Shown in pieces: positions 4,087-57,245 of a stretch of DNA of 64,000 bases. Position numbers and translations under genes: made by a program. This stretch comes from Branchiostoma floridae (lineage: Eukaryota; Chordata; Leptocardii; Amphioxiformes; Branchiostomatidae). Position 1 is the stretch's first letter; every line of letters begins with the position of its first letter. A model generated the notes under the pieces. It saw only the letters and a program-made list of their open reading frames with translations. It searched no databases and was not told the origin of the DNA. Where the stretch lies: the NCBI RefSeq assembly GCF_000003815.2, contig NC_049983.1, forward strand, positions 26,281,003 through 26,345,002. Direction: 5' to 3'.

Positions 4087-4165
4087 ATGGCCGGACGGGA
4101 CCACCGGGCCACGAGGAGCCGACTGGTCTCCGCTGGAATCGCCTGTTGGCTGCTGATTGTCATAG
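4087..4165 (+). CDS. Gene B exon 1: leader peptide
   Basis: Starts ATGGCC in strong Kozak context and encodes a basic stretch (RDHRATRSR) followed by a hydrophobic core (LVSAGIACWLLIV), a signal peptide or signal anchor. It ends in phase 1 before GTAGGG. The same 79-nt exon recurs at 26721, 60991 and 62387. Confidence 0.85.
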
Positions 4166-7100
4166 GTAGGGAATATACTATTTTGTTTTCTATATTTACT
4201 CGGGGTAGTCATCTGGTGCTAAATATCTACCTCGACATCTATCTGTCGCGAGATGGGAGGTAGTTATGTCGTAGTGTTTTACAAATTACAGCGCCAACTG
4301 TCAGACCCCTTCCAAAGATCCATTCAGACTAGATGTGTGTACACGTACCGGAATGCCGCACCTGTGGCTGTACAATTGTTTGAGTGCAGTTTCTGAACCT
4401 AGACGCCATGTATATGTGCCTGTGCGTCTACAAACTAAAACACTTTGCTTGGAAGATAGATTATCTAGAAATAAGGCAGGTAAATCGGGTCTGAAAGGTT
4501 ACATATTCGTTCACAAATTCCTACTTGAAATTTAGGTAATCTTGTAGACAAAGTGTTACCTTTTGGCATTGGTTTTAGGTGTTTGGAAGTTTAATGGAGT
4601 TTGTTATTGTTGTTGGTGTTGGTACCGACTGCTGTTTGACTGACTGTGAGAGTTGGTTGTACAATGTTTTCGGAAATCCGGTGTGCTCTATTCTGCGAAA
4701 TGTGGCAGAACGTCTTTGGATTTAATCGCCCACTGGCAACCAGTATAATATTTGTAGCACTGTTGGTGTTTATATTCTAACATGGTAAGGCGTCTCAATA
4801 TTGATTCCATTAGTCATGTGTTAGATCACGTAGATAGAAGTTAGGAGGGGCAAACTGCGCAAAGAAAAGGACCAATCAACCGTAAGGCAAAGATACCTCT
4901 AAATATTTGATGAGCCTGGCGTCGCCTCTTTGTGCGATGAACAAAGACTGACGTTTATCCGAGAGTAACACAACAGTTTTGTAGGTACAACAGACATTGT
5001 CCCCAGGGACTTTCTGCACCAAGCATCGCACAGACGTCGGTAAACCTTGCCAAAGTTAACCGTAATGCTATGGGAATGGTACAGTAGTGCCAATTAGGAC
5101 TCTGATCAAGTCTATCGGATATCTATGTCCTGATGAAGGTAAATGAACATTTAGATAGAGGTCGGCCAGGAAAACATGTCATACTCTAATAAAAATGGCT
5201 TTTTTTTACATTTTTTTAACTTTATTTCACACACCGGACGATTTGTATAACCTTAAAAGTTTATATGCATCTGTATTGTAGGGCAAGAATAAGCAGTGGT
5301 GTATATTTTTTGTTTTGATGTTGACTTACTTGTCATTTACTTTGATTTGTTATTGTATTTACATTTGATTTGTATACTACTATTTGTAACTATGTTGTTG
5401 GTGTTCGTATATTCCATTTTANNNNNNNNNNNNNNNNNNNNNNNNNNNNNNNNNNNNNNNNNNNNNNNNNNNNNNNNNNNNNNNNNNNNNNNNNNNNNNN
5501 NNNNNNNNNNNNNNNNNNNNNATCTGTAAAGATATAAATCTTATATTCTCTATCATCCAAAATAGCGGCTACACTTCTGTTTCATTGAACTATAGAATAA
5601 CGTTCAAAGATGGACAAAAAAATGTAAAAGTGAAAAAAAACTGACAACTTTTTAACCTCTTCTTCCAGGAATTTCAGCTCCAACAGCAGCCGGTAAGTTT
5701 TCTTTTTCGTTTGTTACCTAGTTACGAAAAGAGCGTTTTTACATGACGTCATAGGCAGAAAAATATGGAAGCGGACGCAGCTATTTGCAGTGATTTGCAC
5801 CTGTAAATAACGGAGAAAACTTGGGTGTTGCAGTAGAGGTTTGTCACTTCCAAATGGCGTGTGAGTGTGATTTGTTATAATGTATAAATCAGTTCTCAAA
5901 ATCCTGAGAGGCATTTGCTTTTACTGTATCATTTCTTTTTACGACCATAACGAGTTCTTTTAAAATCTGTGGCCAGTTACCTTTTGATTAAGGTAGTAAT
6001 GTTACAATTCTACACTTCATATGGACGCGCTAGTACAAATTTCTTCACCTCAATCCCCAGTCAGGTTATTATTTCGTAGTCCCACATCACAGCGAGTGTG
6101 ACTATTTCATTACTTCTTCGTATTATGTAATTGTTAGCGAGGACGAAGGTAGTAATCATTTCTAGAACCTCGAAATTAAAATTTGTAGAACAATTAATCT
6201 AAGGTAACGTTAGCTCCAGAAGCAGGTGTTTTCTAATTTTAACAGTCTGCATTTTGCGGGCATGTCTTTGCTTTCGTTCTTACAATTATTGCCTTTATCA
6301 TATCAGAAGTCTAATCATAGTTATCCTTGTTCCCAGCTGGACCTCACGCTTTCCAAGTCGTGCGAACTACAAACCAGCAGTATAAAGGGGTGGACTTCTT
6401 CGCCATCCATGCGCGGCTGCCCGCTGACGGTTGGTCGGCCTCAGAGAACTGGTGCCGGGACTACCAGAACCTTTGTGAAAGGTTCGGACAGCAACCTACC
6501 GGCTGTGGGGAGCAATACACAATCACCTCTCCACGGCCAAACAATGCAAGGTAGAATCAATGACCGATAGAAGCCATATTGCATGATGTTCGTATGTCTG
6601 TCTTTTATTTGATCTTTCGCGCAATCTGTAATACGATCTGTCTTGTGATTTTCGTTTGATCTATCCTGCGATCTGTCTTGCTACTAATCTTCCGATCTGT
6701 CCCGCAATTTGCTCTGCCATCTTTCTTGCGATTTGTCCTTTGATCTGTCCTTCGATCTGCCTTACCACTTGTCTTTATTTGTCCTGCAGTCTGTCTTGCG
6801 ATCTGTCCTGCAATTAGCCCTGTGGTCATTCCTGCAATCTGATCGATCTGTCCTGCGATCTGACCAATCTGTCCTGGGATCGGTTTCATGATTTTTGCTG
6901 CGATATGTCCTACGACCAGTCTTGTGAAATGTCTTTTGATTTGTTATGAAGGCAGAGTCATCCATCAGCCATGAATATAATTGAACCTGCGGTCATAAAT
7001 TACATTGAACTGCCTTTGTCATATTTAGAAAAAACGACAACCTATTTCATAGGAGTAACCAAATCTTCAGTACAATCATTCTTGTGCCTCCAGGTGCGTG

Positions 7101-10100
7101 ACTGAATACAACTCCGACCCCTACATCAACGACGTTCTTGGCTGCAACCCGGCAGGAGGTGTTGGGGAGATTGCGAAGCTGGCTTTCTCAGCCCCAAACT
7201 CTTGGAGTCGGAGTTTCGGCTTTAATAGCTGTGCCGACTCTGATAGATACTGCCGACAAAACATATCGAACAGTATCTACAGTCTCTACTCCACAAGTCG
7301 CGCCTGGCCTGGGGAGGAAGACCAGACTGTGTACACCGTGTGTAAAGGCTCAACGCCTCACAGTGAGTATCCGGGTCGTCTTCTCACTCTGTAGAACACG
7401 TTTCTTAACCTTCAAACACCACAATATTTTTTTTTCAGACTAACATGACTGAACGTGGTGCAAATGGACCACATTATATTTTGTTCATTAATCTCTTCCT
7501 ATTACGGTGTTACATGTCCTGAACACGTCCTAACCATCTCCCGATCAGTAAATGACTTACTCCCGACTGTGTCCCGAAACGTTTGGATGGCCCAGGGCGG
7601 CAGGCAAACAGCGACCGACTCAGCCGAACGCCAGCCGACAACAGCTCATGAATCACTCCTAACCATAATCGGGAGCTAACTTCGGCTATGTGTGTAAGAG
7701 GGGCTTGAGATGCCTTTCAACCCCAAAATGCACGCTTTTGCCGCCACACAATCAATAGAAGAACCTGCAAATTTTCTCCCACTGACACCAAATCCCACTT
7801 GATCGTTGTGCCATTTCCGTCCAGCTGTAACCGTTACCCGTTACCGTTAACTGTGGTTTGTTCTTCCAACAGGTAATGGCGGCTGCCAGCATTTCTGGGA
7901 CGGTCAGAGCACGTGTATCTGTCAACCCGGCTTCGTGTTGCAGGCAGATGGTCGAAGTTGTGAAGGTGGGAGACCTAATAAATATTCTTTGTTAAAATTT
8001 TTGTTGCCGAACATTAGCAGCGGGCCACTATTTTCGTAAAAGACAATGCTTATGTCTCTTATAAAACAATAATATGCTAAGATGTTTTCTCACCATTGTT
8101 ACCTGCCTTCATGTCCGTCAAAGTTATGCTTTGCTACATGTTAAACCACCTGTTTTAAATTCAGTGAGAGCCAAAACAAAGGACAAGTTTTACTATGGAA
8201 TTCGTCCAAAAGGACGCCCATTAACAAAGTTATGTACTCATTTTCACCGGCGTCGAGTAAATGAATCAGTGCACTATTAGAACCTGTTTGGGATTTGAAC
8301 ACTACCGCAAATTCCCTTCTCTCAGCTGGACCCACCGCCTTTGAAGTCCTGAGGACTCAGAACCATGAGTATAAAAGAATCAACTTTCTCGCCATCGAGG
8401 CGCGACTACCGGCTGACGGCCTGTCTAAGTACATCACCTGGTGCACGGACTACATGTACCTGTGCGCAGAGTACGGACTCAGACCCACGGGCTGTGGGGA
8501 GGACCATGCACTCGAGACAGGGCAATATTTCTACGATAGATATGCGCGGTAGGATCTGAAACATGCACGCTACTAGTAAAGCATGTATTGTAATCTAGAA
8601 CTGGGCTGTAGATTCTTTTAGAAATCGTGGCCCGTATAAGTCATAAATGTCATCGGGCTGCCCCGGATTAGGGTGATGTGGTGATGAAATAAAACTTCTA
8701 ACACTGTGGTATCCGATACACTGTTAAAGCTGTGCTGAAATCGAAACCACCTCCATGGCAAGATTTTTACTGAGATTCTCTATAAGACATGAAGGTTATG
8801 CATGGGTACCCTTAGAAAGCCCTCTAGAGATTTCAGATCCTCATTGCCACGTCTCGTGAGGACCATGTTTCCAGACATAATTTCTACGTCTCCAGTGCAT
8901 GTGAACAGCACAACCAAAGGTTCTCGAACTACTTGTTTTGAGAATGGGGAAGATCAACATGTTGTAGGCAGTTAAGAACAACCGTTTGTGTGTTTGTCCA
9001 TCAGGTGCTTGGCTGAGTATAACTCCGACCCCTACATCGACAACTCGCTCGGCTGTAACCCGTACGGCCACATCGCTAGTCTGGCGAGCTCGGCTTTCTC
9101 TGTCTCGGTCACACGTACCAGCAGTTTCGGCTTCTCTAGCTGCCATTTTAACCACTGCAACCGTGAGATATACGATAGTAGGAGCAGTACTGTACCCCCA
9201 GACTTTACCTTCGACGGAAGCGGCAGCACGATCGTTTACACCGTGTGCAGAGGCAGAGATGGTGAGTATCTTAATTCTCTAACGTTAGTCTATAAGCGGT
9301 TCAATATAAAAAAGATCGATCAGCATCACTCACCAACATCACCTAACCACTCCAACGACTTGACCAAACACCCGAACGATCCACCAACAGCACCCACCCA
9401 CACTATCAACTTACACCATTCCAACGACTAGACCATTTACCCTCGCCACTCAGTAACACCACCCAGCCCCACCATCCGCTTGCACTACCCACCCGAACAA
9501 GAGTTCGGAGACCTCGTACCTCCATGAAATATTCTGATTAATATGCAAATGAAATTCACATTTGCATAATGTATGCGTGGTAATGAACACCTTTAGCTAA
9601 CAGGTCACAATGTTGGCAATCCAATCATTAACTACATGTATTTAGATGGATTAGTACACTTTCATATTCATTTTGCAAATTAGGCACTTATTTGTATTTG
9701 CTAATCTTCCACCTGCCACAAACTCCATAAGCTACATGCATTTGAGTTCTACAATAGACAACACTGTAATTATAGATTTCTCTCATTAAGTATGCAAATT
9801 AAGTCCAAATTTGCATAAACTACACTTCATTATGTATATCTTTGCGCTGCGTCGCTTTTATTGGTGTCATAATCTCAACAGAGATCCACACTTTCGAGGT
9901 CCTCCGCACTGCAAACCAGCAGTATCAAGGAGTCGACTTCTTCGTCATCGAGGCTCGGATACCAGACGACGGCCTGTCCGCCTCTGAAAGCTGGTGCAGG
10001 GACTACCAAAACCTGTGCGCAGAGTTCGGGCTCAACGCGACCGGCTGTGGGGAGGACTACGCAGTGGAGGGGGGCTGGGGTACCACACCTGAACACATCC

Positions 10101-13100
10101 GGTACGATCCGTGACACGTAACGTTACCACTGGAATCGCGTACTGCTATTGTACCTGTCTACTGATCTGGTCAGACATGGAGTTAGCAGTTGTTAACATA
10201 TTCTAAGAAAACCTCTGTCGTGTTTCCAGGTGCGCCGATGAGTACAGCTCCGACCCCTACATCAACAACGTGCTCGGGTGCCCTCCGGCCGCTGGGGTAG
10301 AGGCGGTGGTGAGGCAGGCTTTTGAACCTTTGTACACTGGTGCGAGGTTCTTCGGCTTTGATGCCTGCTCCGTCCCCTCCTGCCAACGTACGCTATACGA
10401 TAGCTCTGCTCTGTCCAACACAACAGCGATTCACGCGGGCACAAGTTCAGCTGAGAGGATTGTGTATACCGTGTGTACCGGTATAGTAGGTTGGTATATG
10501 GGTCCATTTTCAAGACGTTATCCAACACTCATATAGGCCACTTAAGCCATTTATTTGTGTATTCAGGAAAATTATACTCGTGTGCATTGTACGATAGTGG
10601 ATCAAAACGTATGGCAAGTGGTTTTATAACTGGCTCATTTTTAGCTGAATGTGTTAAGTTCGCACAAAGTTACAGACATATATCCTCTTGAGGTTGAAAT
10701 ATCTTAATTTCTTTTTCATTATTTATGAGTTGATTTCAGGATGATTTCACCATTGGAGGTTTGATAATCAGTTCCTCTAGATCTCGACAAACTAACAATT
10801 ACTTGGAAGTTGCTATTGCACATGTATATGTAGGATAGCAAATGTATCTATACATTACATTCTAATTTTCATTTCTTAACTCCTAATGGTTCCTCATTCA
10901 TAGTTACCAGATTGGTGAAAGTTGTGATATAGAGCAGTTGAATTTTTAGCTGAATACGTGATTTGCTGATTAAAAGTTTTTGTAGACTACTTTTCCATCA
11001 AACAAAAGAAACGACGTGGTGAACGAAAAATTTAGATATTTTAATATCAAAAGGATGTATGCCAAATTTCAATTAATTTCACCCTCGTATCTATCTGGTT
11101 CACTTCATGGAACGAGTATTAGTACTATTGATTCTAAGACACACTTTCTTGAAAAACACCTTGAATTTGACCAATGACTGCACCATCAAAGCAAATCACA
11201 ATAGGGTATCACAATAAATGTTGTTACTGTCATTTAACAACGGAAATATGGTCAACCCAAACCAAGTCTCTTGCCTCTTCGTGTCAGCCGTATTTCTTTT
11301 AACTGATGATGTTCCAAACGTTAATCTGAGCCTTGGCTGTGCTCTGTATTTCTTACAGACGGGTGTGCGAATGAAAATGGCGGGTGTGCTCAAAACTGCA
11401 CCAGCCTCCAGGGGGGAGGATATCACTGCAACTGCACGCAGGGCTATTTTCTAATGGCGGATCTTCATGGCTGTGAAGGTGGGAGGCTGTTTGCAAGTTA
11501 GTTAATTACAAGCGTAAGATATGGACATGACTTCCTCGTTTCACAACCAGTTCATCAAAATTATAAAGATGGCTGGAGATTATCATGCTTCAAGTTTATC
11601 AACAGATTAAAACAAGTTAATATCACTAAGCACATACCGAGGTATGGTCCAACCCATGGGAGAGCCGACTATTGTTACTAGTATCTAATACTTTTGGCTC
11701 TTTCAGACATAGACGCCTGCCTAGCTAATCCATGTGACACCCAGGCCAGCTGTACGGATAACCCCGCCCCTGCCCTAGATGCGACTTGTACCTGCAGCAC
11801 TGGATATACAGGAGATGGACTCGCTAGTGGAACTGGATGTACAGGTATTAAATTATTTCAAAAACCACGTGACAAGAATAAAATCAACATTAAGGCACAA
11901 TATGTGTATGCGAAATCTTAGGTATTCGCATTCTATAAACGTCCATTTAGATACCTAACACCCATTGCCTTCCATTTCATCCACAGACATAGACGCCTGT
12001 GATAATAATCTATGCCACGCCCAGGCCACCTGTACGGATAACCCTGCCCCTGCTCTAGATGCGACTTGTACCTGCAACACAGGGTTTACTGGAGACGGAC
12101 TCGCTAATGGAACTGGATGTTTAGGTATTGCATTCTTCCAAAAGCCGCGTGACAAGAGTAAAATTAGCAAAATCCTTGGTATCCAGATTCTATAAAAAAT
12201 TCATTTCGATACTGTAAATGCATTTAGATTCGCGGGGATTTGATTTCGCGGTAGCGGGAAAGGGATATATTCGTGGCGGTTTTAATTCCGCGGTAGCACC
12301 ATGTACTTAAGTCTCTTACTGCCATGGAGAAATGTTCGCGGAGGGTTAAATTTCTCGGTAAAATGTCCGCCGCGAAAACCGCGAACATTGCTGCATTTAC
12401 AGAACCTCTCTAAAACCATCCCCATTGCTTGTATCCACAGACACAGATGCTTGCTCGGCTAACCCTTGCCACGCCCAGGCCAGCTGTACGGATAACCCTG
12501 CCCCTGCTGTAGATGCGACTTGTACCTGCAACACTGGGTATACAGGAGATGGACTTGCTAGTGGAACTGGATGTTTAGGTATTAAATTATTTCAAAAGTC
12601 GCGTGGCAAGAATAAAATTAACGTTAAGGCACAATATTTGTGTGCAAAATATTCGGTATCCGCTTTCTATAAACATTCATTTAGATACCTAACACCCATT
12701 GCCTTCCATTTCATCCACAGACATAGACGCCTGTAATAATAACCCTTGCCACGCCCAGGCCACCTGTACGGATAACCCTGCCCCTTCTCTAGATGCGACT
12801 TGTACCTGCAACACTGGATATACAGGAGATGGACTAGTCAATGGAACTGGGTGTTTAGGTATTACATTCCAAAAGTCACGTAAAATCCACGTTGAGGCAC
12901 AATATGTGAATGCAAAATGTTGAGTATTCACGTCTTTTAAAAACCTAGTACATGTAAATACCTTTGTAATTTATCAACCATTGCCTTGCGTTTATCTACA
13001 GATATAGACGCCTGTAATAATAATCCATGCCACGCCCAGGCCATCTGTACGGATAGCCCCGCCCCTGCTCTAGATGCGACTTGTACCTGCAACGCCGGAT

Positions 13101-23364: not shown

Positions 23365-24190
23365 CGAATTCTACGATCCCCGCACCCCCATAGGAAGGCC
23401 TGGTGGAGGCTACAATCCCCTCACCCTCGTAGGAAGGCCTGGTGGAGGCTACGATCCCCGCACCCTCGTAGGAAGGCCTGGTGGAGGCTACGATCCCCGC
23501 ACCCCCGTAGGAAGGCCTGGTGGAGGCTACGATCCCTGCACCCTCGTAGGAAGGCCTGGTGGAGGCTACGACCCCCGCCCCCCGTAGGAAGGCCTGGTGG
23601 AGGCTACGATCCCCGCACCCTCGTAGGAAGGCCTGGTGGAGGCTACGATCCCCGCACCCCCGTAGGAAGGCCTGGTGGAGGCTACGATCCCCGCACCCTC
23701 GTAGGAAGGCCTGGTGGAGGCTACGATCCCCGCACCCCCGTAGGAAGGCCTGGTGGAGGCTACGATCCCCGCACCCCCGTAGGAAGGCCTGGTGGAGGCT
23801 ACGACCCCCGCCCCCCGTAGGAAGGCCTGTTGGAGGCTACGATCCCCGCACCCTCGTAGGAAGGCCTGGTGGAGGCTACGATCCCCGCACCCCGTAGGAA
23901 GGCCTGGTGGAGGCTACGATCCCCGCACCCCCGTAGGAAGGCCTGGTGGAGGCTACGATCCCCGCACCCCCGTAGGAAGGCCTGGTGGAGGCTACGATCC
24001 CCGCACCCCCGTAGGAAGGCCTGGTGGAGGCTACGATCCCCGCACCCCCGTAGGAAGGCCTGGTGGAGGCTACGATCCCCGCACCCCCGTAGGAAGGCCT
24101 GGTGGAGGCTACGATCCCCGCACCCCCGTAGGAAGGCCTGGTGGAGGCTACGATCCCCGCACCCCCGTAGGCAGGCCTGGTGGAGGCTAT
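23365..24190. repeat. 39-bp GC-rich minisatellite, about 21 units
   Basis: The unit contains CGTAGGAAGGCCTGGTGGAG and GCTACGATCCCCGCACCC. As 39 is 13 codons, several frames stay open (for example the 13-residue GRPGGGYDPRTPV), but a few units of 38 bp or with other indels shift frame. No splice or start context supports a protein. The central units (about 23900-24180) are almost identical, so expansion is recent. Confidence 0.9.
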
Positions 24191-26720: not shown

Positions 26721-26799
26721 ATGGCCGGACGGGACCGCCGGGCCACGAGGAGCCGAATGGTCTCCGCTGGAATCGCCTGTTGGCTGCTGATTGTCGTAG
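26721..26799 (+). CDS. Gene C exon 1: leader peptide
   Basis: ATG in ACCATGG context; MAGRDRRATRSRMVSAGIAC then a hydrophobic end, 79 nt, phase 1, donor GTAGGT. Homologous to exon 1 of genes B and D with a Leu-to-Met change. Confidence 0.85.
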
Positions 26800-38700: not shown

Positions 38701-38903
38701 TTCCGTCGACAACTGCCAACGTGAGATACAGGATAGCCTTGCTCTGTCCGACACTTCAGCTGTTCACTTTAGTTCAACTCCAGACGGGAAGATCGTGTAT
38801 ACCGTGTGTTCCGGTATATCAGGTAGGAATATCAGCTATCTAACGTTCTCGCTTGTCATTTTACCTCCATGAAAAATTAAGATATTGTTTTTGGTGTATC
38901 TTC

Positions 38904-38943
<40 letters not shown>

Positions 38944-47900: not shown

Positions 47901-50900
47901 TATATCAGTGCTAAATTAGTATTTCTTTTGCGTTCCATTTTTTTCAATGAATGTTTTTCCAAAACTAAACTGGTGTCTGCAATACCATGTTTTCTTTCAC
48001 TATTAGAAGGAAATGATTGTCCAGAAAAGCCGCCAGGTTCTGGATAACCTGCTCAACGCCGTTACCGACCCCATGAGACTTGGAGCCCCGCCGGTAACTA
48101 TCAAGAGGAGTGGTGTTACTCTGAAAGCACAGAAGATCCGGGGCTCCATGTCTGGGGGCCAGGTGGTGCAGACGGAGGAGGGGGGAGGAGTCCAGTTCCC
48201 ATCCCAAACTGCACTTTTCCCGGAACATCCACCTCACAACGTTACCGTTAAGGTATCATCCCTCCCTTCCTACCCCTTATGTCTGCATCAGCTAACGATC
48301 TTTTCATCCTTTAAACTTCCAGAAAGGGTGTTGTTAGACCATCCCCTTTCATCTCGTTCTAATCATCTGCATGAAAAAGGTGAGGTGAACACCTCGACTA
48401 ACATCACGGCTTTAGCATTTCCTTGTATAATACCATATTTTTGTAAATTGCCAACGCTTAGAATGTTGTCTTCAATCTTCTTCTAGTGGGAACGGCAACC
48501 AATGAAAAAATAATCTGCTTTTGAGAGAAAGGTACGGACCTCAAATCTAAATATAAAGGGATAACAAAAATTCCATTGCTTTCAGTTGACTCAGTATCAG
48601 CAAAACCCATTCACTTGGGGCCTTGGCCAATACCAGGCACACTCTTCTGTCATGGAACTGACGATTCGCCAGAAAAACTACAAACCCTTGGTCTTCAACA
48701 ACCTTACTGAAGATTTCATAATCACCATTCCGGGCAAGTCCAGAAACACACCAGCGACAAAAATCATCACCTACCCTCTCCCAGGAAACCGAAGTTCGGC
48801 CTACCATTTGCTAAACCTCAACAGCACCGCAGAAGCGTTCCTGGTCACAATCACCCCGCTGAACACAAGCGTGGTCTACGGCGTGTGGGGCAGGTACGGC
48901 GGCCGCCCTGATGACCCAAACTACGACGTGTCCATGGAGACGTACGTTCTTCCCGAGGAGTGTTCCCTGATGGAAACTCTGGGTGGGGATGGACACGGCA
49001 TGGACAAGACGGAGGCAAGGATGTTCATCAAAGGAGTTGAAGATCCAGTGGATCACTACGTCAAAGTCCAAATTCTAGGTGAGCCATTTTGTTTTCAAAT
49101 TATGATCACCATGACAGAAATAAAGGTCTCTTGATTTGAAAGACTGAATAAAGTAAATGTGTGTAGCAGACGAAACTATGCTTTTATATCGATTTTCTCC
49201 AGTGTCTTCTCCGGTGCCTTTTGGTCTTAAACCGTGAAAAAAAAATTAAAGAAATATTATGTTCTACCACTGTCGAAAGTACATATTATACGCTATCACA
49301 TAAGTCGGCTTGAGTCCTGGAATGTAATAATGTATGTTTCTTATGAAGTAGAGATTGTCTTCTTTTCTTCAGGACCGGCGACACAGTGTGACGTCAATGA
49401 GCAAACAGAAGAAAATCGTGTACTCTCAGACTCCTTCTACTCCTACCAGATCCAGTGGGCCCGTCTGAGCTGCGTCTTCTGGAGCGAGACCCAGGACGCC
49501 TGGAGACCGGAAGGCTGCACAGTGCGTACAACGGCCATATTATATTGCCAAACTTGCAGAGTTTTGTTGCCATTTTATCAACTATTAATAGTGAATCATA
49601 TCTTATACGATTAGAATCTAATTTGTAACCGATTGTAACCATTTCATTGATGATTGATTATTCCAATAATTACTAAAACTGGTTTAACCTGCAGTGTGTC
49701 AACATATTCGGAGTACTAATTAGCATAATGACAATATGGTTCTTCTTCTTCCCGTAATGTCCAGCTGCCGAGTCTTCGGCAATAATTGACATGTTGGGGT
49801 CAGAGGTCACCACTAATGCTCTAGGAGGCACTGGATACTTTTAGAATGAAACGGGCCAGGGATGGGGACTGTACAGTTTCTTCGGACAAGTTGTTCCATT
49901 CTCGAACAGTCCTGGGGAGGAAGGAGTTGAGTCGGTAGTTGGTGCGACAGGGGATATGTTGCAGCTGTAGGCTGTGACCCCTTCGGCATCTGTTGCTACT
50001 AGGTAGAGGCTTCAGTGTTTTGCAGCGCACGTGTGCCAGACCATTCAGGATTTTGTACAGCATGGCGAGTCTGCTGGTGCGGCGTCGGTCTTGAAGGGAA
50101 GGCCACTGAAGTTGTTCCAGCATATCAGAAACACTGGACGTGTTTCTGTGCCTGTTCAGGACAAAACGGGCTGCCCTGCGTTGGATCTTTTCAATTTTGC
50201 TAATGTCTCTGTTGGTGTGAGGATCCCAAACGGAGCTGGCGTACTCCACAACTGGTCGGACTAGTGCTTTGTACGCCAGCTCCTTTGTCTTGCTAGAACA
50301 AACCCTCAAGTTGCGCCGTAGGAATCCTAATGTTCGATTGGCTTTAGAGTTAAGAGTACTTGTAAATTATTATACTGTTAACGACCCATTTAACATTTCT
50401 AAACATTTATTTGGATTAGTCGTTTTTATCGACAAAAATGTAACATTTCTGTCTACCCTTCAGATTAGCAACCAGTCCACGATTAACAACATTATCTGCC
50501 ACTGCAACCATCTGACGGCGTTCGGGAGTGACTTCGCCACACCACCTAACAGGGTGGACTTCGGGGCTTTAACTCTTAGTGATTTACGTAACAACGGCGC
50601 GGTGTTGACAACCATCTTCGTGGTGGACTGCCTGTTTTTGCTCGCGTTGGTCATAATAAAGATTATTGACCCTAGATTAAAGAGGAAGGTAAATGGGCAT
50701 AATCGACAATGACTCAATTTCATAAACAACTTGGAACTTTGTCGCGTGTTCTGAATTTTTTAGATATATTTTATCAATATTCCATTTTTTCATTCTTACA
50801 GAAAAACTCTTCCATCACACTGGATTACCTGCAGAATGATTTCCGGTACCGCCTGCACCTTTGGACAGGCACCGCTAAGCATGCCGGGACGGAGTCCACA

Positions 50901-53900
50901 GTTTCCTTCAACCTGTGTGGAGATGAGGCGACCTCCGGGGTGAGAGTGGTCAGCATCACGGAGAAGGTCATGCATTAAATTACTTTAGCGTCCATTTTAT
51001 TCCGTATGAATGTTTTCAAGTAAATCCTAACAGGTCGAATGTTGCTGTTTAGGTTTTTACCCAAGGCAGCCAGGTGACGCTGAACTTCAGCACAGCAGAA
51101 CAGCTGGGTAACGTGGCGCTGCTGCAGCTCATGCACGACAACAGTGGGGAGGGGAGCCGTGCATCGTGGAACGTGGACAGAGCAGCAGTGCAGGATCTCA
51201 CCACAGGCAAACTGTGAGTTTTTAGGCTGCTTAGATTCGTCAATTCAATCGCATCTATAAAGTGCACGACCGAGAAAGGATCTACACATTATGTTTAGTT
51301 TTGTGATGAAGTTAGATATGATATTTTGAAAAGATATAGTTTTTATCATGGCGAAGAACAGACACGACTGCAATTCAGTTCTTTTTGATCGATGGTGACA
51401 AAAATTAAGCTTGCATATCTTGCCACGTGATTAAAATGATATAAACCTTATGTCCTAATAATCAAACTTTAGACTTTCTCCGTTTCATACTTCACTAGCT
51501 TTAAAAAATCCCTATTCCTGACCTTTGTCAAACTGTGAGGTTTAATATGGGTCCTAAAAGAATTAATCTAAGTTATTTTGCCATTAAATCATGGAACAAC
51601 AGGTTCTACTTCTTCTGCGATGAGTGGCTGGCAGCCGACCGCGGGGACGGACAGGTCGCGAAGACCTTCCCTGTCGCCACTGAGCAGGACCTGCGATCCT
51701 TCGGGTTTCTGTTCCCGGCAAGTCTGCGGAGCAATCTTGTAGAGGAGCACCTCTTTTTTTCCGTCGCTATCATGCCTACAGGTAAACGTGTATATTTACT
51801 ACATATTAGATCTATCTGTATTACACTTGCTGAAGGATTCCTATAAGTTGAAATGAGGAGCTAGGTGTCTATAGAACAGAAGTAGTTCTGCTAGTTTTCC
51901 TGCTCATCTGGCGAAAAATCCACAGGAGAATCCGAATTATCATCAGATGACTGCGGAGCAACCAATCCCAAGTTTCTATCCATAACTGACGGGCCTCAGC
52001 CAGTACAGCAATTGTGCATTAGGAAAATAGCATAGAGATAGTTCTTCTATGCATGGAATCTTTATGAGTATAGTCAACTTTGTTGTTCCTGCAAATACAG
52101 TAATCAACTGAAGACAGATTTTCAAATTCTTTTAATTATGGTTGAATATGACCAGAAACTGTTCCATTACAGGAAGCAAGTTCACCCGCATCGAGAGGCT
52201 TGGCTGCTGCCTGAGTTTCCTCACCTTGTCCATGGTGGCCAGCGCCATGTGGCTGAGCGATGAAAACGCAACTCAAGTTGTGCAGGCCGTCAGCCTGGGG
52301 CCGTTTTCCTTCACCTTGAACACAGTTTACACGGGAATCATGGCCAGCATCACCTGCCTTCCCGTCGTCATGGCCATCGTTGTGCTGTTCCAGTACAGCC
52401 GACCGAACAGCAAGGGCGGTCGTCCGGTCAGGGACGCGGAGACAGCCGGACCAGCTGAGGCACCCACGCAGCAAGAACCAACCAAGGGCCTGCCACACTG
52501 GTGCAAGTACGTGGCCTGGGTGCTAGTGGTGCTGTCTGCCATGGGGTCATCTGTCTTCACAGTTCTGTACAGCCTGGATTGGGGCAAGGACAAGTCCGAG
52601 AGGTGGCTGTCTGCGTTCTTCACCACTTTTCTGGCGGACATATTTCTTCTGCAACCAGTGAAGGTTTGTGCCGAAATGTCTTGTCATGCTCTGCTGTTTC
52701 AAATCTTAATTCCTTTGAAAAAGAAGCAAATTAAGTACAATGCAATCGGGTTTGCATGTTATTAAAACGTTGGGGATTGTGATGGATACATGTTCATCCA
52801 TAGATCTAGAAGCATTGGTTGTCTAATTGTATATAAATGTCAAATCAAGATTTTGTACAATACTAATGTATATAATATAACCTCTTCAGAACCTCCACAT
52901 CCTACTAGCTGCTGTTTCCTTAATCAACGTCGACAAAATTGTCAATATTAAACACTTAATGTTACAGGTCTTGGTTCTGGCGATCGTCTTTTCATCCGTT
53001 TTCCAAAAACATACCTTGAAGATGATTTTTGAAAATGAAGCGGACAAAGTTGTCCTGCAGGACACTACTGTGGTGTCAATAAAGCAGAAGGAGTTTGACA
53101 GTGAGTCATTAATAACTTGATGTAAAGCCGCAACATTCATTTTACAGTTATTATTTGTTACGTTATTATCTAAGGATACGACATTTGTGTTCCGATTGTT
53201 CTGCGTTCTATCTCTTTACGTAATTACTGATTGATTTTATGTTTACTTTCAACAAAGGTGGTCGATTCCGGGTAAAGAAGAAAATGGAAAGACTGTCTCA
53301 GATGTCCCTTGCAAACGTTAACGAAGCGCAACGTAAGCGGAACAGAGACAGGCGAATCGGAAACCTCCTTTGGGACATCATCTTGTCTTGTGCTCGCCTC
53401 CTGCTTGCTCTGACTATCATTAACGGACACCACAACACCAACACAGCCTTCTATCAGACACAGAGTGCTGCAGAAAACTTCGTGCAGTCCATTGACGAGG
53501 TGAGCACGTCATTGCAGTATTTAAAACGTAGCTTTGGGGAGTATTTAATTGTGTACATAACGGCATGCTTTCTCTAGTTCTCACTGTTATAACTGTCATT
53601 AAGAAATACTGCTGAAATACGCACAAGCCACATGCAACTTATCAAAATGTATCCAGGATATGAAAAATGTGAATCTTTTATCATCTGATCTAGTCTTTTA
53701 TCATGGAGCATACAAAATTTAGAATATGCCAATAATTCATGGATATATCCACATATTCTATCCTTCCAGGTGACCGAGCCTTCTGCCCTCTGGCCCTGGC
53801 TGAACGAGACCGCTCTGGAGAGCTTCTACCCGGAGACTTCCTACAATGACGACAAGCCCCGCTGGTGGGAGAAGGTCTTCACAGCCGACATGCAGTCGGT

Positions 53901-56900
53901 CCTGGTCTCCCCACCCATCCTGATTCAAGCCCGAGTAAAGCCAGGTTGGTTGAACTGCTTTTTACGTAGGACTAGAAAATAAACATACGTTACTATAGGG
54001 TACAAATTTGACCGTAGTTCTGAGCCTGTACAACTTTTATCAATTGTTTCAACGCGACTTGCGTAAAACTAACGGAGTGTATGAAAGGCGATTACATCTT
54101 TAGCTATTTTCTTTGACTTCCCTCCTTCTTCAATCCCAGGGCTGTGCGTAGTGCCTGCGACAATGCAACACATGTTCGATAAGTGTACGGCAGCGTATGG
54201 TGAAAACACGAAGGAGACCGGAGTGTTTCAGAAGGGATGGAAAAGGGTCACGAATGTGTCGGAGGTGGAGTCAGAAACCTCTGGATGGCGCCACCGCCCC
54301 AGCGGTTACACCATCAAACCCGTCTTTGGTGTAAAATCGCACTACTGGGGAGACGGCTTCAGTCTGGACCTAGGAGATTCAGCAGACGAGATGCGCGGCA
54401 TCCTAGCAGACCTGAAGTCCAACCGCTGGATTGACAAGCGAACAAGGGCCGTCATTGTGGAACAATTCGTCTACAACGGAAACCTGGATATGTTCACTTC
54501 AGTGACGGTAGTGTTTGAATTTACCGAGATGTCCGGAGTTTTCTCCCATCGTCACCTGCACACCTTCCGGCTTCATCAACAGCCAGGTACAATCGGGTAC
54601 ATCTACGTCTTGCTGGAAATTATTTACGTCATCTTTCTCCTCTACTCACTGTGGAAAGAGGCGAAAACAGCACGAGCAGCCGGCTGGGCCTACCTGACGG
54701 AGCCATGGAATATTTTCGAAATCTTTAATTTCATCTTGGCCTTCACTGTCATTGCCTTGTACGCCACGAACAGAGTCTATGGGTCCATGGCTCTGACGGC
54801 TGTCAAGCAAGGGAAAGGTGGGTTATAAATATGTACACATCAGTTCATTACGTTGTCCGCTAGCATTGTAAAAAAAATCCTACAATTTTAAAAGTTCAAA
54901 AGTTCGAGGAAGGGCTTAAAGAAAATAATAACGAACAATTCTTTTGATTCCGTTTAGATCCACTCCAATATCTCAGATCAGTGGTGAACATAAACCTGCT
55001 GTACGGATGGTTCCTGTCTTTCCTTGCCTTTGTCAACATCATGAAGCTCCTGCGACTGTTGAGGTTCAACCCACTCCTGTCCAAGCTGATGTCCGTGTTC
55101 CGGGGAATGGCGGTGGAGTTCTCTGCCTTCATCTTCTACTTCTTCCTCTGCTTCTCAGGATTTGGCATCAGCGCTTATTTCATGTTCGGTGCCACCGCAA
55201 CAACGTACAGGTTCGTAATCTCAAATGTCCACTTACAGTCAAGACTATACCAGACCTGGAATTACATTAGATTGTACACATACTGACATGAAAACGACTT
55301 CTTTTTCTTTTTCAGATCCATCAGCATCTCCTTCTCCACATTGTTCCAGATGTCTCTTGGATTCTTTGACCACACAGAGCTGACGGAGGCAAACCCTATC
55401 CTCGGTCCCATCTTCTTTGTAACTTTCATTTGCTTCATGTTCCTGGTTCTGATGAACATCGCCATGGCGATCATCGACAGCGCACTTCCGGACGTGCGGA
55501 ACCACGTCATGCCTGAAGAGGACCGGTACTTCATCCAAGGGTTGTGGGAACGCTTTACCTCCCTGCTTGGGCTTCAGGAAGCGCCAGTCACAGGTAATGA
55601 GGTCTAAGTGATGTTGTCCAACACGTAATTAAAATCTTAATGAGCCGTATTTTTATTACCAGGCGACACCCGGTTCATTTCTACCTGATCATTTTAGTTT
55701 TATTCAAAGTTTTGGAATGACAAATTTGTACACGTTACAGACGTCCACATCGTGGATACGCTCCACGACAGCCTCATTGAGGTTGAGATCCAAGTTGAGA
55801 GGCTGTGGTTGAGGAGACTGTCGCTTTTCAGCTGCAGGCGAGTACGGTTCTCTGTGGGATGCATGGACCGAACATTTCCTGTGTCCGACTTACTCATGCT
55901 TTTCCCTCCCCCTTCTGAACTGTAATGTTGCGCTGCCGCATTCTTTCGACAGCGTGGCTGACATGTCGTAGTCTTGGAACGATTTTTTTTTTATATTTCA
56001 CATAACAGTTGGGGTTTTGCTTCTCTCTCAACAGTAATAATCAGATGTTAATGTTGCCATCGCTTTACCATTTTCATTATTTTGGGTCTCCTCGCGCTCT
56101 GCTGTCAGAATGGAAGACAAAAGCTAATGGTTAAGTGACTAATTGAATAGTCCTAACATTTGATATTTCAAAAGACGATTACAGATTCAATTTGCTTGCT
56201 GAAGGCGCGGCTTCACTTTGCTTGTCTTTCACCTTTCTAATTTTCTAACGCTTCTGAACCCTAGTTTGACCTTATCTTATATTTTTTACCGTACAGGATG
56301 AAGAATGCTGACCTCCCCACAGAACCTGACTTCGTCCCGCCAGTCATGAACGTCCTCAAAGATGCAGCCGAAGATCGCCAAGCTCCAAAAGAAGACCTTC
56401 CCGTCATTGTGATCCGTCCTGCTTCCCAAAACAACGGCGGAGTGGACGAATCCGGGAACAGCACACTAGCGACGACGGGTCCAAGTTCAATTGACAGCTA
56501 CGAAGAAGAAAATGTCTTAGAAGATAAAGATTTGGCTGTGGTTAAGTCCTCTTCACCTCCTTTCCTCGACAAGATGCTGACATACAACGACATCCAAGCT
56601 GCCCAGAGCCTGCTCTGCCGCCAGTACCCGGCATTCCAGGGGCTGGAAGACCCTGTATTCGGTCTCTATGAGGTAGGATTTGCAAAGATGACTAAAAATG
56701 GGTTACAAATCCACCACAGTGGTAGCGGTACCATGCACTGGGTGCTGTCGTCTTACACAGACGGACAGGTGTGCCTGTATGACAGTCTCGGCGTCGCCAT
56801 GACCAAATCCTTGCAGATTCAGCTTTGCCAGTCTTACGCCGCATTGGTTGACCAGAAAACAAACGTACTGACCGTCTTGGTACCGGAGGTACAGCATCAA

Positions 56901-57245
56901 TGGAATGCCGAAGATTGTGGGCTGTTCGTCATCGCCTGGGCAGTGGATATCGCAGAGGGGCAAGACGTGAGCAGGGTTTTGTATGACGACAGGAAGATGA
57001 GGAGCCATTTGGAGATGTGCTTCAAAGAAGAGAAACTCACACCGTTTCCACGTCTGACCAGCCGCAGATGGAGGGTCGGTCCAACCAGTGCACACCAGTT
57101 CACACTGGTCTGCCGCTGCAAACACGTTGGGCGTCTGGGAAGGATGGAGAGGTGCAAGGCATGCCGGAGGATCTTTCACGTCAGCTGCCAGGCAGCCAAC
57201 CCTCCCCGTGACGGCACATGGGCTTGTGGAGACTGTGCCGTGTAG
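26721..57245 (+). CDS. Gene C: polycystin-1-like 11-TM protein with Ulp1/C48-like and PHD tail (41-exon model)
   Basis: Spliced model; exon groups are listed separately. The 41 exons sum to 8958 nt, exactly 2986 codons with the stop, all phases compatible. Order: leader and microexon (1-34), A/B pair 1 (35-190), half EGF (191-221), A/B pairs 2 and 3 (222-540), EGF (541-580), EGF-FN3-FN3 and EGF-EGF-FN3-FN3 (581-1053), Ser/Thr and acidic stalk (1054-1174), GAIN/GPS (about 1215-1660), TM1, PLAT (1719-1887), ten further membrane segments with the polycystin extracellular domain (1888-2637), linker, Ulp1-like domain and PHD (2670-2985). PKD repeats and the large REJ module of vertebrate PKD1 are absent. 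Family knowledge places such proteins in ciliary or plasma membrane, often paired with a PKD2-type partner. Confidence 0.75.
27742..27912. repeat. 19-bp minisatellite in intron 1
   Basis: About nine copies of CCAACCACACATCCCAGTT. A short array of the same unit is at the equivalent place after gene D exon 1 (63408-63465). Confidence 0.9.
28108..28440. repeat. Tandem duplication inside intron 1
   Basis: Two diverged copies of about 160 bp (28108-28257, 28272-28440) share a CTGTG(T/C)(G/A)AATAAAAGGA start and AAATATTTGA(T/C)GAG. Single copies lie in gene B intron 1 (4850-5000) and before gene D exon 2 (63690-63830). Confidence 0.7.
28443..32097. other. 3.65-kb stretch unique to gene C intron 1
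   Basis: Genes B and D have introns of about 1.5 kb here, with flanks that match both sides of this block, so it looks like an insertion or expansion. It contains a direct repeat of about 200 bp (29745-29940 and 30186-30390; both include CTGGTGTTTCCGTGA, AGAAAATTCGAAAAGT and GGTTTTACGGAGACCA). I find no coding gene and no clear terminal repeats; ORFs here are short and unrelated to anything I recognise. Confidence 0.5.
32211..32234 (+). CDS. Gene C exon 2: 24-nt microexon
   Basis: Identical to the gene B microexon, between CTTTCCAG and GTAAGT. Confidence 0.8.
32418..33343. mobile_element. piggyBac-like non-autonomous element
   Basis: TTAA (32414-32417) then CCCTCAAACACCCGAGTGGG at the left; the right end is the complement, with CTTGAGGG and TTAA (33344-33347). 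TTAA target duplications and CCC-starting ends are diagnostic of the piggyBac superfamily. No transposase is seen in the 926 bp. A one-ended copy in reverse orientation is at 57521-57670. Confidence 0.8.
33408..34650 (+). CDS. Gene C exons 3-4: first A/B module pair
   Basis: Exons 33408-33606 (A) and 34382-34650 (B). A is five codons shorter than in gene B after P-T-G-C-G. B keeps L-G-C and T-V-Y-T-V-C, ending in the same K-G-S-T-P-H. The acceptor of exon 4 is GTGCTTAG and the junction codon is AGA rather than AGG. All eight cysteines are kept. Confidence 0.8.
35505..35597 (+). CDS. Gene C exon 5: half EGF-like module
   Basis: 93 nt, phase 1-1, NGGCQHFWDGQSTCTC then GRSCV. It is the counterpart of gene B 7873-7965 with few changes. 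Confidence 0.8.
   Translation, partial: VMAAASISGTVRARVPVISASLCRQTDVVV
35829..35870 (+). pseudogene. Duplicated fragment of exon 6 with its acceptor
   Basis: CTCAGCTGGACCCACCGCCT at 35831 repeats the first codons of exon 6 with its splice acceptor, but the similarity ends after about 30 bp. A relic of exon duplication, possibly a decoy acceptor 190 bp upstream of the real exon. Confidence 0.6.
36028..36932 (+). CDS. Gene C exons 6-7: second A/B pair with two lost cysteines and a GC donor
   Basis: Exons 36028-36250 (A) and 36679-36932 (B). In A the usual T-G-C-G-E-D reads T-G-N-G-E-D (TGT to AAT). In B the usual L-G-C-N-P-Y-G reads L-R-G-P-H-T, one codon shorter and without the cysteine. The donor of exon 7 is GCGAGT, a GC-AG intron; the gene B counterpart has GTGAGT. 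Beyond it the frame stays open into a minisatellite. Confidence 0.75.
36985..37560. repeat. 39-bp minisatellite in intron 7
   Basis: The unit contains AACCACTCAACACCACCATC and CACATACACCATTCACCAG; there are roughly fifteen units, the 3' ones nearly identical. Gene B has a related but unexpanded ACC-rich stretch at 9325-9480. All frames on both strands tend to be open, giving His/Pro/Thr-rich or Trp/Met/Val-rich translations of no clear meaning. Confidence 0.9.
37698..38822 (+). CDS. Gene C exons 8-9: third A/B module pair
   Basis: Exons 37698-37917 (A) and 38563-38822 (B), the same lengths as in gene B (220 and 260 nt). A keeps T-T-G-C-G-E-D, B keeps L-G-C-P-P-A-A-G and ends I-V-Y-T-V-C-S-G. 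Donors GTACGT and GTAGGA. Confidence 0.8.
38893..38980. repeat. (TG)n microsatellite
   Basis: About 24 TG units followed by interrupted TGTG/TGCG sequence in intron 9. Confidence 0.9.
39181..39315. mobile_element. Foldback MITE, family 1, copy 2
   Basis: Reverse-orientation copy of 1831-1998, with GACCCGCCCCGAGGTGTA, GTAAAGGACCAGGCGTTATG and TATTATCATATAGCCTACC. Confidence 0.8.
39989..40108 (+). CDS. Gene C exon 10: full EGF-like domain
   Basis: 120 nt, phase 1-1, six cysteines, nearly identical to gene B 11359-11478. It is the last exon shared by the two genes; downstream of it the architectures diverge. Confidence 0.85.
40469..41965 (+). CDS. Gene C exons 11-13: EGF-like and two fibronectin III domains
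   Basis: Exons 40469-40570 (34 aa, six cysteines, DCGHCQGGDINCDP start), 41190-41465 (FN3: P-P-M-N-L-T-V-S-D-V-T, F-K-V-T-W and D-Y-I-I-S-V) and 41693-41965 (FN3: M-L-R-F-T-W, T-G-Y-R-I-M-Y and M-Y-K-V-E-I). All are phase 1-1. FN3 domains serve adhesion or ligand binding outside the cell. Confidence 0.85.
42115..43813 (+). CDS. Gene C exons 14-17: second EGF-EGF-FN3-FN3 cassette
   Basis: Exons 42115-42237 (EGF, starting EPDECATVNGWCDQIC), 42638-42739 (34-aa EGF-like), 43000-43275 (FN3) and 43547-43813 (FN3). Each of the last three pairs closely with one of exons 11-13, and exon 14 corresponds to exon 10, so a four-exon block was duplicated in tandem. Confidence 0.85.
44207..44836 (+). CDS. 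Gene C exons 18-20: Ser/Thr-rich and acidic stalk
   Basis: Exons 44207-44362 (about 40% Ser/Thr, mucin-like), 44494-44622 (imperfect DQSD/EQSDGE repeats) and 44778-44836. Likely an O-glycosylated spacer between the adhesive modules and the GAIN region. Exon 20 ends in phase 0, closing the run of phase-1 exons. Confidence 0.7.
45067..48252 (+). CDS. Gene C exons 21-26: membrane-distal GAIN region
   Basis: Exons 45067-45147, 45513-45584, 46143-46280, 46724-46814, 47538-47695 and 48007-48252. Helical sequence with QRLAQ, VLQSITSKLGKLDM, an acidic stretch with EEEEQRAE, then VLDNLLNAVTDPM. This is the pattern of the helical part of GAIN domains that precedes GPS in polycystin-1-like proteins. 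Individual small exons are supported by splice sites and phase rather than by family motifs. Confidence 0.65.
48586..50688 (+). CDS. Gene C exons 27-29: GAIN beta-part, GPS motif and TM1
   Basis: Exons 48586-49078, 49373-49521 and 50464-50688. The GPS reads SCVFWSETQDAWRPEGC, then CHCNHLTAFGSDF. All canonical Cys and Trp and the H-L-T cleavage site are present, so self-cleavage between Leu and Thr is expected. TM1 follows (LTTIFVVDCLFLLALVIIK). The intron between exons 28 and 29 holds a LINE fragment. Confidence 0.85.
49740..50320 (-). mobile_element. LINE C-terminal fragment in the GPS intron
   Basis: The antisense frame 50309-49821 encodes a reverse-transcriptase tail (YKALVRPVVEYASSVWDP, LQWPSLQDRRRTSRLAMLYK, FLPRTVREWNNL). 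Towards 49740 it ends in a GAAGAAGAAGAA-like tail. Same family as 20200-20710. It splits the intron that separates the two halves of GPS. Confidence 0.85.
50802..51781 (+). CDS. Gene C exons 30-32: PLAT/LH2 domain
   Basis: Exons 50802-50966, 51053-51213 and 51603-51781. Y-R-L-H-L-W-T-G-T and F-N-L-C-G-D-E start the beta sandwich; F-Y-F-F-C-D-E-W-L-A ends it. In polycystin-1 proteins this is the first cytoplasmic loop, binding lipids and calcium. Confidence 0.85.
52173..53100 (+). CDS. Gene C exons 33-34: TM2 to TM5
   Basis: Exons 52173-52663 and 52968-53100. F-T-R-I-E-R-L-G-C-C-L-S starts TM2, the usual polycystin-1 motif after PLAT. Three further hydrophobic spans follow, with a hydrophilic QQEPTKGLPHWCKY loop between TM3 and TM4. 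TM5 is interrupted by the exon junction. Confidence 0.85.
53258..54817 (+). CDS. Gene C exons 35-37: TM6, polycystin extracellular domain, TM7-TM8
   Basis: Exons 53258-53499, 53770-53944 and 54140-54817. After TM6 the polycystin (TOP) domain contains Cys-x12-Cys (C-V-V-P and F-D-K-C), the conserved disulfide position of PKD2-family proteins. TM7 (Y-I-Y-V-L-L-E-I-I-Y-V-I-F) and TM8 (N-I-F-E-I-F-N-F-I-L) follow. Confidence 0.85.
54958..55593 (+). CDS. Gene C exons 38-39: TM9-TM10, pore and TM11
   Basis: Exons 54958-55210 and 55316-55593. K-L-L-R-L-L-R-F follows TM9, TM10 is F-I-F-Y-F-F-L-C-F, the pore helix reads F-S-T-L-F-Q-M-S-L-G-F-F-D and TM11 ends L-M-N-I-A-M-A-I-I-D. The pore loop is complete, but the PKD2 filter L-G-D is replaced by L-G-F, so conductance properties are open. 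Confidence 0.85.
55741..55837 (+). CDS. Gene C exon 40: cytoplasmic linker with GC donor
   Basis: Encodes about 32 aa of charged helix (L-I-E-V-E-I-Q-V-E-R-L-W). Using the GCGAGT donor (phase 2, AG) and the acceptor at 56296 the next exon is read exactly in frame. If the intron is retained, translation ends at TAA 55923-55925, giving a short-tailed form. Confidence 0.65.
56297..57245 (+). CDS. Gene C exon 41: Ulp1/C48-like protease domain and PHD finger
   Basis: A 949-nt exon. After an acidic linker, a C48-type core has His (M-H-W, codon 56736), Asp (L-Y-D-S-L, 56781), Gln (56898) and Cys (D-C-G-L-F, 56916) in Ulp1 order and spacing, Q-x5-C. The end is a C4HC3 PHD-like finger (C-x-C-x10-C-x2-C-x4-H-x2-C-x12-C-x2-C), stop TAG 57243. 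Family role: cleaving SUMO or related modifiers, and binding histone tails. Such Ulp1-like exons also occur in animal transposons, so capture from one is possible. A separate gene starting at ATG 56298 is the alternative; the same tail at 1-81 shows that the exon travels with the family. Confidence 0.7.

Follow-up and report, generated by a model that had tools for sequence, protein, structure and literature searches.

The window analysed here, a 64-kb stretch of the Branchiostoma floridae genome, holds two long gene models on the plus strand, B and C, which open with near copies of the same ten exons and run on into channel domains of different families. The model of gene B comprises 32 exons and 4908 nt and that of gene C 41 exons and 8958 nt; both totals, already put forward as whole codon numbers in the preliminary description, were reproduced, and in each model the terminal stop is the only stop. 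All 32 exons of B are open and all of its introns are GT-AG; exons 7 and 40 of C require GC donors (GCGAGT at exon 7). Splice scores in the B model are low at acceptor 16351 and at several donors, and at the end of the shared part the exon 10 donor scores 9.4 (median 7.07) and the acceptor of the first EGF exon 7.96 (median 8.04).

The shared head comprises a leader, EGF-like exons, and a cysteine-rich domain, here called R, that occurs three times. In gene B, a signal-peptide-like leader exon (E1, 4087-4165), placed by the exon model and a genome pattern search, is followed by E2 to E10 (5669-11478), which encode R1, EGF, R2, R3, and EGF (5669-5692, 6337-6550, 7094-7362, 7873-7965, 8326-8548, 9005-9261, 9882-10101, 10230-10489, and 11359-11478). 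The corresponding exons of gene C lie at 26721-26799, 32211-32234, 33408-33606, 34382-34650, 35505-35597, 36028-36250, 36679-36932, 37698-37917, 38563-38822, and 39989-40108. As first described, the two sets (4087-11478 and 26721-40108) are colinear near copies with identical phases; lengths are equal except at E3 (214 and 199 nt) and E7 (257 and 254 nt), nucleotide identity is 80 to 100% per exon, and amino acid identity is 79% over 580 codons. Introns 2 to 10 each outscored the best of 10 shuffles when aligned between B and C (intron 1 was left out as too long), so the shared part is a segmental duplication, introns included. The sole run of N in the window, 100 N at 5422-5521, falls within intron 1 of B, so the link from leader to head in this gene rests on the array copies described below. 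For the R domain itself, neither Pfam nor PDB gave a credible match (best E values of 0.11 and 0.17, respectively), and a scan of prokaryotic genomes yielded no relative; the predicted structure of its second half, made from six alignment rows, was unusable (mean pLDDT of 35.3). Two cysteines of R are lost jointly, which predicts a bond between them. A separate Rfam search returned nothing that reached gathering thresholds.

Past exon 10 the two models part company, in line with the preliminary description: Pfam matches lead in B through 13 EGF exons to a Cys-loop channel like that of glycine receptors (GlyR), and in C through FN3 domains, GPS, and PLAT to a polycystin channel. The EGF exons of B (11707-15906) are phase 1-1 and 129 to 138 nt each, the seventh (13584-13715) having a shifted acceptor. 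The channel, identified by Pfam, PDB, and paralogues, spans 16351-22442 with the stop and has nine exons (16351-16518, 17016-17083, 17833-18056, 18726-18808, 19136-19282, 19921-20085, 20812-21017, 21500-21613, and 22248-22442). An alternative in-frame acceptor at 16198 has a higher score and would raise the total to 5061 nt; codon usage disfavors it, and an alignment of three paralogues, in which homology begins at 16351, also led us to reject it. Both halves of the channel exceed the Pfam cut-offs (Neur_chan_LBD, 4e-14, 52.9 bits versus 26; Neur_chan_memb, 1.3e-9, 39.1 bits versus 28.1). Cys-loop receptors have 13 residues between two cysteines, and B has this pair, C-PTDLEKYPFDDYK-C, in exon 18726-18808. 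In the anion-selective GlyR/GABA-A subgroup, M2 has Pro-Ala-Arg at its inner end; B reads T-A-R at this place, and GlyR chains are its best PDB matches. The nearest among the Cys-loop (pentameric ligand-gated) receptors is GlyR alpha1 (7mlu), with which the B tail shares the C-x13-C loop, matches to the ligand-binding domain (LBD) and membrane domain, aligned M1 to M3 segments, an M4-like end, and an A-R pair where M2 starts. It differs in that a stalk of 13 EGF exons and three R domains precede the LBD, in having WVPP in place of WKPD, in the lack of a proline before the A-R pair, and in a cysteine-rich insert in the loop-C region. This insert is exon 19921-20085, with 54 full codons and 8 cysteines; when it is included, the Pfam LBD match stops at position 148 of 216, and when it is removed the match reaches 214. 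Being symmetric (phase 1-1), the exon could be skipped without loss of frame. It is 91% identical in a paralogue, which keeps 8/8 cysteines.

In gene C, exons for Cys-rich, FN3, FN3, EGF, Cys-rich, FN3, and FN3 units (40469-43813; exon model and Pfam) are followed by Ser/Thr-rich exons judged by eye to be mucin-like (44207-44836), a stretch that runs through the GPS (CHCNHLT; 1.3e-10) and a first TM-like segment (45067-50688), PLAT exons (50802-51781; Pfam, 2.6e-10), and a TM region with polycystin domain and PC2-like pore (52173-55837). GPS, PLAT, Polycystin_dom (4e-31), and PKD_channel (1e-26) lie above the Pfam cut-offs, fn3 matches four times, and the pore is nearest to PC2 (1.2e-39), then PKD1L3 (1.2e-25), then PC1 (1.7e-7). 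Gene C resembles the PKD1/REJ-family polycystins (the human PKD1 group and sea urchin SpREJ, PMC1934368) in its large modular ectodomain, GPS, PLAT, TM region, and polycystin pore, and departs from them in its R/FN3 ectodomain, in its last exon, and in lacking any Pfam match to the REJ family at E values up to 1. That last exon (56297-57245), whose nature the preliminary description did not mention, is Ulp1-like (C48) and PHD-like. Its matches fall below the Pfam cut-offs for Peptidase_C48 (15.5 bits versus 20.7, E of 0.016) and PHD (19.6 bits versus 24, E of 9e-4), SENP8 aligns at an E value of only 0.41, and the predicted structure of the exon alone was unusable (mean pLDDT of 32.8). The catalytic positions of Ulp1/C48 peptidases are His-Asp-Cys; motifs at these positions (HW, Y/F-D-S, and D-C-G) are conserved in 7/7 array copies, and all seven also have the PHD Cys/His pattern. 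Polycystins with such a last exon account for 24 of the 26 places compared.

B and C belong to an array. A 35-nt pattern taken from the start of E1 and allowing one free position matches the 513-Mb genome at 11 sites, every one on C5, and the genome-wide search for genes with this leader exon, as originally suggested, gave nine in all (B and C included), eight of which have a polycystin tail. Gene B alone has a Cys-loop tail. The idea of one head joined to two unrelated pore types is supported at the level of gene models, but the accompanying proposal of a modular cluster in which one sensing unit is wired to different pores is not: as the single exception among nine, B is better read as one derived chimera than as an instance of a general pore-swapping design. 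The gene upstream, A, enters the window only with the 3' end of its PHD last exon, which ends in a stop (1-81, plus strand; 75/81 nt identical to the C copy; whole exon, C5:26280136-26281080); it has a polycystin tail with kringle/EGF exons, and R was not detected in it. The heads thus vary within the array; R1 was not detected in genes F and G. In gene D, at the downstream edge, the R1 exon is apparently broken; two leader exon copies (60991-61069 and 62387-62465) and an exon 2 copy (63939-63962) lie on the plus strand.

The B tail is of a kind with a family of Cys-loop genes that have EGF stalks. Its order of EGF exons followed by a Cys-loop channel recurs on C2 (10.77-10.82 Mb) and C19 (3.68 Mb), with EGF exons of matching type and the same channel exons; the parts that were read show 15 EGF exons ahead of the channel in the C2 gene and 9 in the C19 gene, and the leading channel exons are 80 to 91% identical to those of B. 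Unlike B, the C2 gene, the only one followed further in the 5' direction, shows matches there to C-type lectin, F5/8C (discoidin), and sushi domains and no R within the 20 kb searched. When 24 Cys-loop places were compared with R places, only B and a place on C137 had R on their own strand in the 70 kb upstream. At the latter, a 23-kb gap separates R from the Cys-loop part, and the exons after R are SRCR- and MAM-like by eye.

The joins between array and foreign tail could be located. At the 5' join in intron 10 of B (11635-11706), intron alignments show that array homology is over by 11634 and that matches to EGF-family introns start at 11669 at the earliest. Up to the break, this intron is homologous to that of the polycystin-type array genes C, E, F, and G, the match to D being in the exon only. 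On the 3' side, a 39-bp minisatellite occupies 23371-24189, and array-type flank resumes after the B tail near 24,200.

On the strength of the gene structure, homology, array context, breakpoints, and constraint between paralogues observed here, we consider it probable that gene B is a chimera in which the polycystin-Ulp1-PHD end of an array member was replaced by an EGF-stalk/Cys-loop end. An array of head-polycystin genes, tandem and inverted, would have contained a member that retained everything from the promoter and leader through the three-R head to EGF exon 10 and exchanged the rest, with one break in intron 10 (about 11,635-11,668) and the other upstream of about 24,200, the donor being a separate receptor family with EGF stalk and Cys-loop channel. 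Because the introns concerned are of phase 1, the reading frame would have been kept.

That B is instead two genes, a secreted or truncated head and an EGF-Cys-loop part with its own promoter, is quite unlikely. The EGF-Cys-loop part does stand as a module elsewhere in the genome, and there are two overlapping leader-like candidates (ATG at 11218 or 11248; their donor, at 11362, falls 4 nt inside exon 10) and an ATG just 5' of the 16351 acceptor; however, the C2 paralogue has no ATG near the latter position, hits like the 11218/11248 candidates turn up at chance level (0.2 per kb for both strands alike), and neither a stop nor a terminal exon was seen past exon 10. A signal-peptide-leader rule that gave 13 plus-strand hits, 4 of them true leaders, found none in introns 10 to 23 of B (0 in 3093 nt).

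We regard as highly improbable a misplacement of an EGF-Cys-loop locus into the polycystin array by the assembly. Minisatellites are spots where assemblies fail, and one sits at the 3' join; the EGF introns are repetitive, and intron 1 holds the gap noted above. Against this, the sequence is free of N from 5522 to 26,600, the 161-nt 5' junction occurs in full once in the genome (47 other matches begin at its position 65 or later), and the channel exons of B are distinct from the C2 and C19 copies. It is just as improbable that the chimera is real yet recent, non-functional, and drifting. Such a reading draws on the apparently broken R1 exon of neighboring gene D and on a fusion that should postdate the split of B from the other array heads (B-C dS of 0.26), but the open exons, the GT-AG introns, and the conserved loop-C cysteines speak against it. 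So does the low dN/dS of the Cys-loop tail against the C2 paralogue (0.206 over 367 codons and 7/9 exons, or about 0.21). For the head, dN/dS is 0.50 (bootstrap 95%, 0.41 to 0.65; 0/300 at or above 1); the two values show purifying selection on both parts, measured between paralogues and not on the isolated B branch after fusion.

As to transcription, protein assembly, cell type, ligand, and ion selectivity, we infer the following for the chimera. The B product would be one subunit of a GlyR-like pentameric channel bearing its head on a stalk of 13 EGF domains, and the C product would be a polycystin, cleaved at the GPS site, that bears a head of the same kind. If the shared promoter acts alike in both, the same cells would produce B and C. 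The promoter block of B (3943-3968) has RFX X-box-like sites at two places, 132 and 144 nt 5' of the ATG, and that of C an X-box-like palindrome 145 nt 5' of the ATG (26576-26589); a strict match was present within 300 nt upstream of 9/9 leader copies retrieved, whose promoters are copies of one another, versus 3.85% of random windows, the match in gene A being at -285. These sites hint at ciliated cells, although an X-box by itself does not predict an RFX target (PMC2375033). A bolder and unlikely extension is that the shared head and RFX-type promoter set B and the polycystin genes in opposition within the same ciliated sensory cells: a single ligand would open both a cation-conducting polycystin and a chloride-conducting pentamer, and the EGF stalk would serve both pore families as a swap platform.

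The pores of Cys-loop and polycystin channels are unrelated. A literature search outside subscription papers and preprints recognized no report of a head common to the two and no polycystin-Ulp1-PHD protein, and found no EGF-stalked Cys-loop genes. For lancelets, PMC4284660 describes novel domain combinations and the shuffling of phase 1-1 exons, and B resembles the cases given there in its symmetric phase-1 exons and promiscuous extracellular domains; unlike the B case, its main text contains no occurrence of "ion channel," "polycystin," or "PKD." Two wider families come into view, the EGF-stalked Cys-loop genes and the polycystins whose last exon is both Ulp1-like and PHD-like. Gene B would be a case in which exon shuffling changed the effector at breakpoints that are mapped, and for which the remaining array members serve as the unswapped control, and a polycystin-family head on a pentameric channel may allow a direct test of what the head senses with two very different readouts.

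The array genes B and C were modelled anew using reading frames and splice sites. Gene B (4087-22442) has 32 exons totalling 4908 nt and gene C (26721-57245) has 41 exons totalling 8958 nt, each with a single, terminal stop; both lengths given in the preliminary description were thus reproduced. In exons 1-10, the head, each exon of B has its counterpart in C at the same position and with the same phase, and identity per exon is 80-100%; the shared head proposed for the two genes holds, with a head dN/dS of 0.50 between B and C (bootstrap 0.41-0.65). Judged by its hydrophobicity, the leader exon looks like a signal peptide; it is followed by EGF-like exons and three copies of R, a domain of ~160 residues encoded by two exons per copy, for which searches of Pfam, PDB, and prokaryotic genomes gave no credible match. 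Two gene C introns begin with GCGAGT (at 36933-36938 and 55838-55843) in place of GT. By eye, open frames resembling the 3' ends of LINE-type reverse transcriptases lie in introns at 14831-15343(-), 20190-20573(+), and 49821-50366(-).

Beyond the head, gene B has 13 EGF exons followed by a Cys-loop channel (Pfam Neur_chan_LBD, 4e-14; Neur_chan_memb, 1.3e-9) whose best PDB match is glycine receptor alpha1 (5.9e-22). It carries WVPP where GlyR alpha1 has WKPD, and gating by a classical transmitter is therefore doubtful. The tail of gene C consists of four FN3 domains, GPS, PLAT, a polycystin channel (best PDB match polycystin-2, 1.2e-39), and a last exon whose similarity to Ulp1 and to PHD is weak, falling below the Pfam cut-offs in each case.

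A 35-nt leader pattern matches the genome (513.4 Mb, 431 contigs) exactly at 11 sites, all on C5, the contig on which the window occupies 26281003-26345002; one, at 1060017, lies outside the set of nine leader-bearing genes. Mapping of 260 kb places genes A-E on the plus strand, with F-H on the opposite one; the 5' half of gene H and gene I (27.37-27.39 Mb) fall beyond the fetched stretch and were placed by other searches. The tail is a polycystin in eight of the nine genes and a Cys-loop channel in B only. Gene E is headed by a diverged leader that is not among these 11 matches, gene D has two leader copies spaced 1.4 kb apart, and the Ulp1-PHD exon was sought in gene I and not found. Gene A (C5:26245889-26281080) has the polycystin-Ulp1-PHD end and, instead of the R head, a kringle exon and EGFs; R was not detected in it, exon 2 was not found near its leader, and it is tied to that leader, 15 kb upstream, solely by position. 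Between genes A and B, an 80-aa open frame (1442-1684) gave no match in a Pfam search.

R1 went undetected in genes F and G, where R2 and R3 were both seen. The second R1 exon of gene D (C5:26345951-26346212) was matched by tblastn in two frames, likely a frameshift or sequence error. In R2, the same two cysteines are jointly absent from C, D, and E and kept in B, F, and G; in R1, that pair is absent from D and E and present in B and C. Because the pair was lost jointly twice, we suggest that these cysteines form a disulphide linking the parts encoded by the two exons. Beyond these genes, R lies 5' of other domains, namely, FN3 and ZP-N on contig C7 and sushi on contig C15.

The first part of intron 10 in B aligns with its counterparts in C, E, F, and G up to 11,555-11,566, and a further piece of C extends this array homology to 11,634; for gene D, in which an N gap follows exon 10, the match is confined to that exon. 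Junction matches to other EGF introns begin no earlier than 11,669, placing the 5' breakpoint at ~11,635-11,668. On the other side, a 39-bp minisatellite (23371-24189) lies 3' of the channel, and from ~24,200 the sequence matches the flank downstream of the C and D Ulp1-PHD exons. Both breakpoints together indicate that ~12.6 kb occupies the place of the polycystin end in B. Elsewhere in the genome, of 26 close polycystin places, 18 have an R exon on their strand no more than 70 kb upstream (with 51 of 150 R rows used; the R exon of a neighbouring gene may fall within this distance), and given this co-occurrence the R-polycystin pairing looks like the older one.

The joins within B were scored with splice-site matrices built from the B and C models (median donor 7.07, acceptor 8.04). 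The exon 10 donor scores 9.4 and the first EGF exon acceptor 7.96. A leader-exon rule (hydrophobic start plus phase-1 donor) yielded 13 hits on the plus strand of the window, including all four leader copies, and no candidate in B introns 10 to 23 (3093 nt). By contrast, two overlapping hits just 5' of exon 10 (ATG 11218 and 11248, shared donor at 11362) could act as an alternative start; hits of that kind occur at 0.2 per kb over both strands. At the EGF-to-channel join, acceptor 16351 scores low; the in-frame acceptor 16198 outscores it and was rejected, as the extra stretch scores as non-coding and homology to the paralogues on contigs C2 and C19 starts at 16351. A Cys-rich exon (19921-20085) interrupts the ligand-binding domain where the Pfam profile otherwise runs unbroken; it is 91% identical in the second C2 gene and is therefore a real exon. 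It is symmetric, so that including or skipping it could keep the frame either way, and it lies at loop C, which in known receptors closes on agonist.

Close matches to the B channel fall into four clusters, three on C2 and the fourth on C19; C17, among other locations, has more distant ones. One C2 gene (C2:10771331-10790379) has 15 EGF exons of B type before the channel, and further 5' are open frames with matches to Lectin_C, F5_F8_type_C, and Sushi, assigned to this gene by position; on C19, inspection by eye showed nine EGF exons over the 6 kb read, as well as fragments resembling lectins. These genes are apparently a Cys-loop family with large ectodomains. The channels of B and the second C2 gene differ with a dN/dS of 0.206 (dS 0.39, 367 codons; seven of nine channel exons, the other two being outside the stretch compared). 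EGF exons of B type also stand between R and polycystin exons (C13:20.84, C13:21.09, C13:21.55, and C12:17.15 Mb), and the stalk is therefore common to the two pore families and could plausibly have served as a substrate for swapping. On contig C137, R exons (C137:145305-146015) are followed by SRCR- and MAM-looking exons and, after 23 kb in the same orientation, by a Cys-loop TM-region match (C137:169012-169302, 34% identity), possibly a second R/Cys-loop fusion.

The ~200 nt upstream of the leaders are conserved and contain paired sites, e.g., ATTACCATGGAAAC, near -132 and -145; allowing up to 2 mismatches, 14 occurrences of this motif were counted over the two strands of the window (palindromes twice), whereas 1.24 are expected. 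A strict X-box match lies within 300 nt of the leader in 9/9 copies examined (in gene A at -285) versus 3.85% of random windows, but since the promoters are mutual copies this amounts to about one observation, and, according to PMC2375033, an X-box by itself does not predict RFX control.

B is thus one derived chimera within an array otherwise uniform in pore; it probably arose by phase-1 exon shuffling, a route known in lancelets (PMC4284660). The preliminary observation of one head on two pore types holds, made firmer by the genome context, while its proposed scope shrinks to B as a lone exception. The B product would most likely be a pentameric channel with its head held off the membrane, and the C product a GPS-cleaved polycystin with a head of that same type. 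For C, the nearest working model is C. elegans LOV-1/polycystin-1, a GPS-processed protein with a role in cilia (PMC9829181).

Copies of the gene C last exon (56297-57245) lie on C5, C13, C19, C3, C9, C12, and C174. At 24 of the 26 close polycystin places, one lies downstream in the same orientation, no more than 20 kb away, the distance being 2.1-3.6 kb in 23 of these 24; 3 of 27 Ulp places compared have no close polycystin. All seven copies in the array have an open frame, with pairwise dN/dS values of 0.26-0.60, and retain both the Cys/His pattern of PHD and the putative His, Asp, and Cys residues. This recurrence and conservation support the assignment of 56297-57245 to gene C despite its GC donor, and give a polycystin subfamily an unexpected end, one part protease-like and the other chromatin-reader-like.
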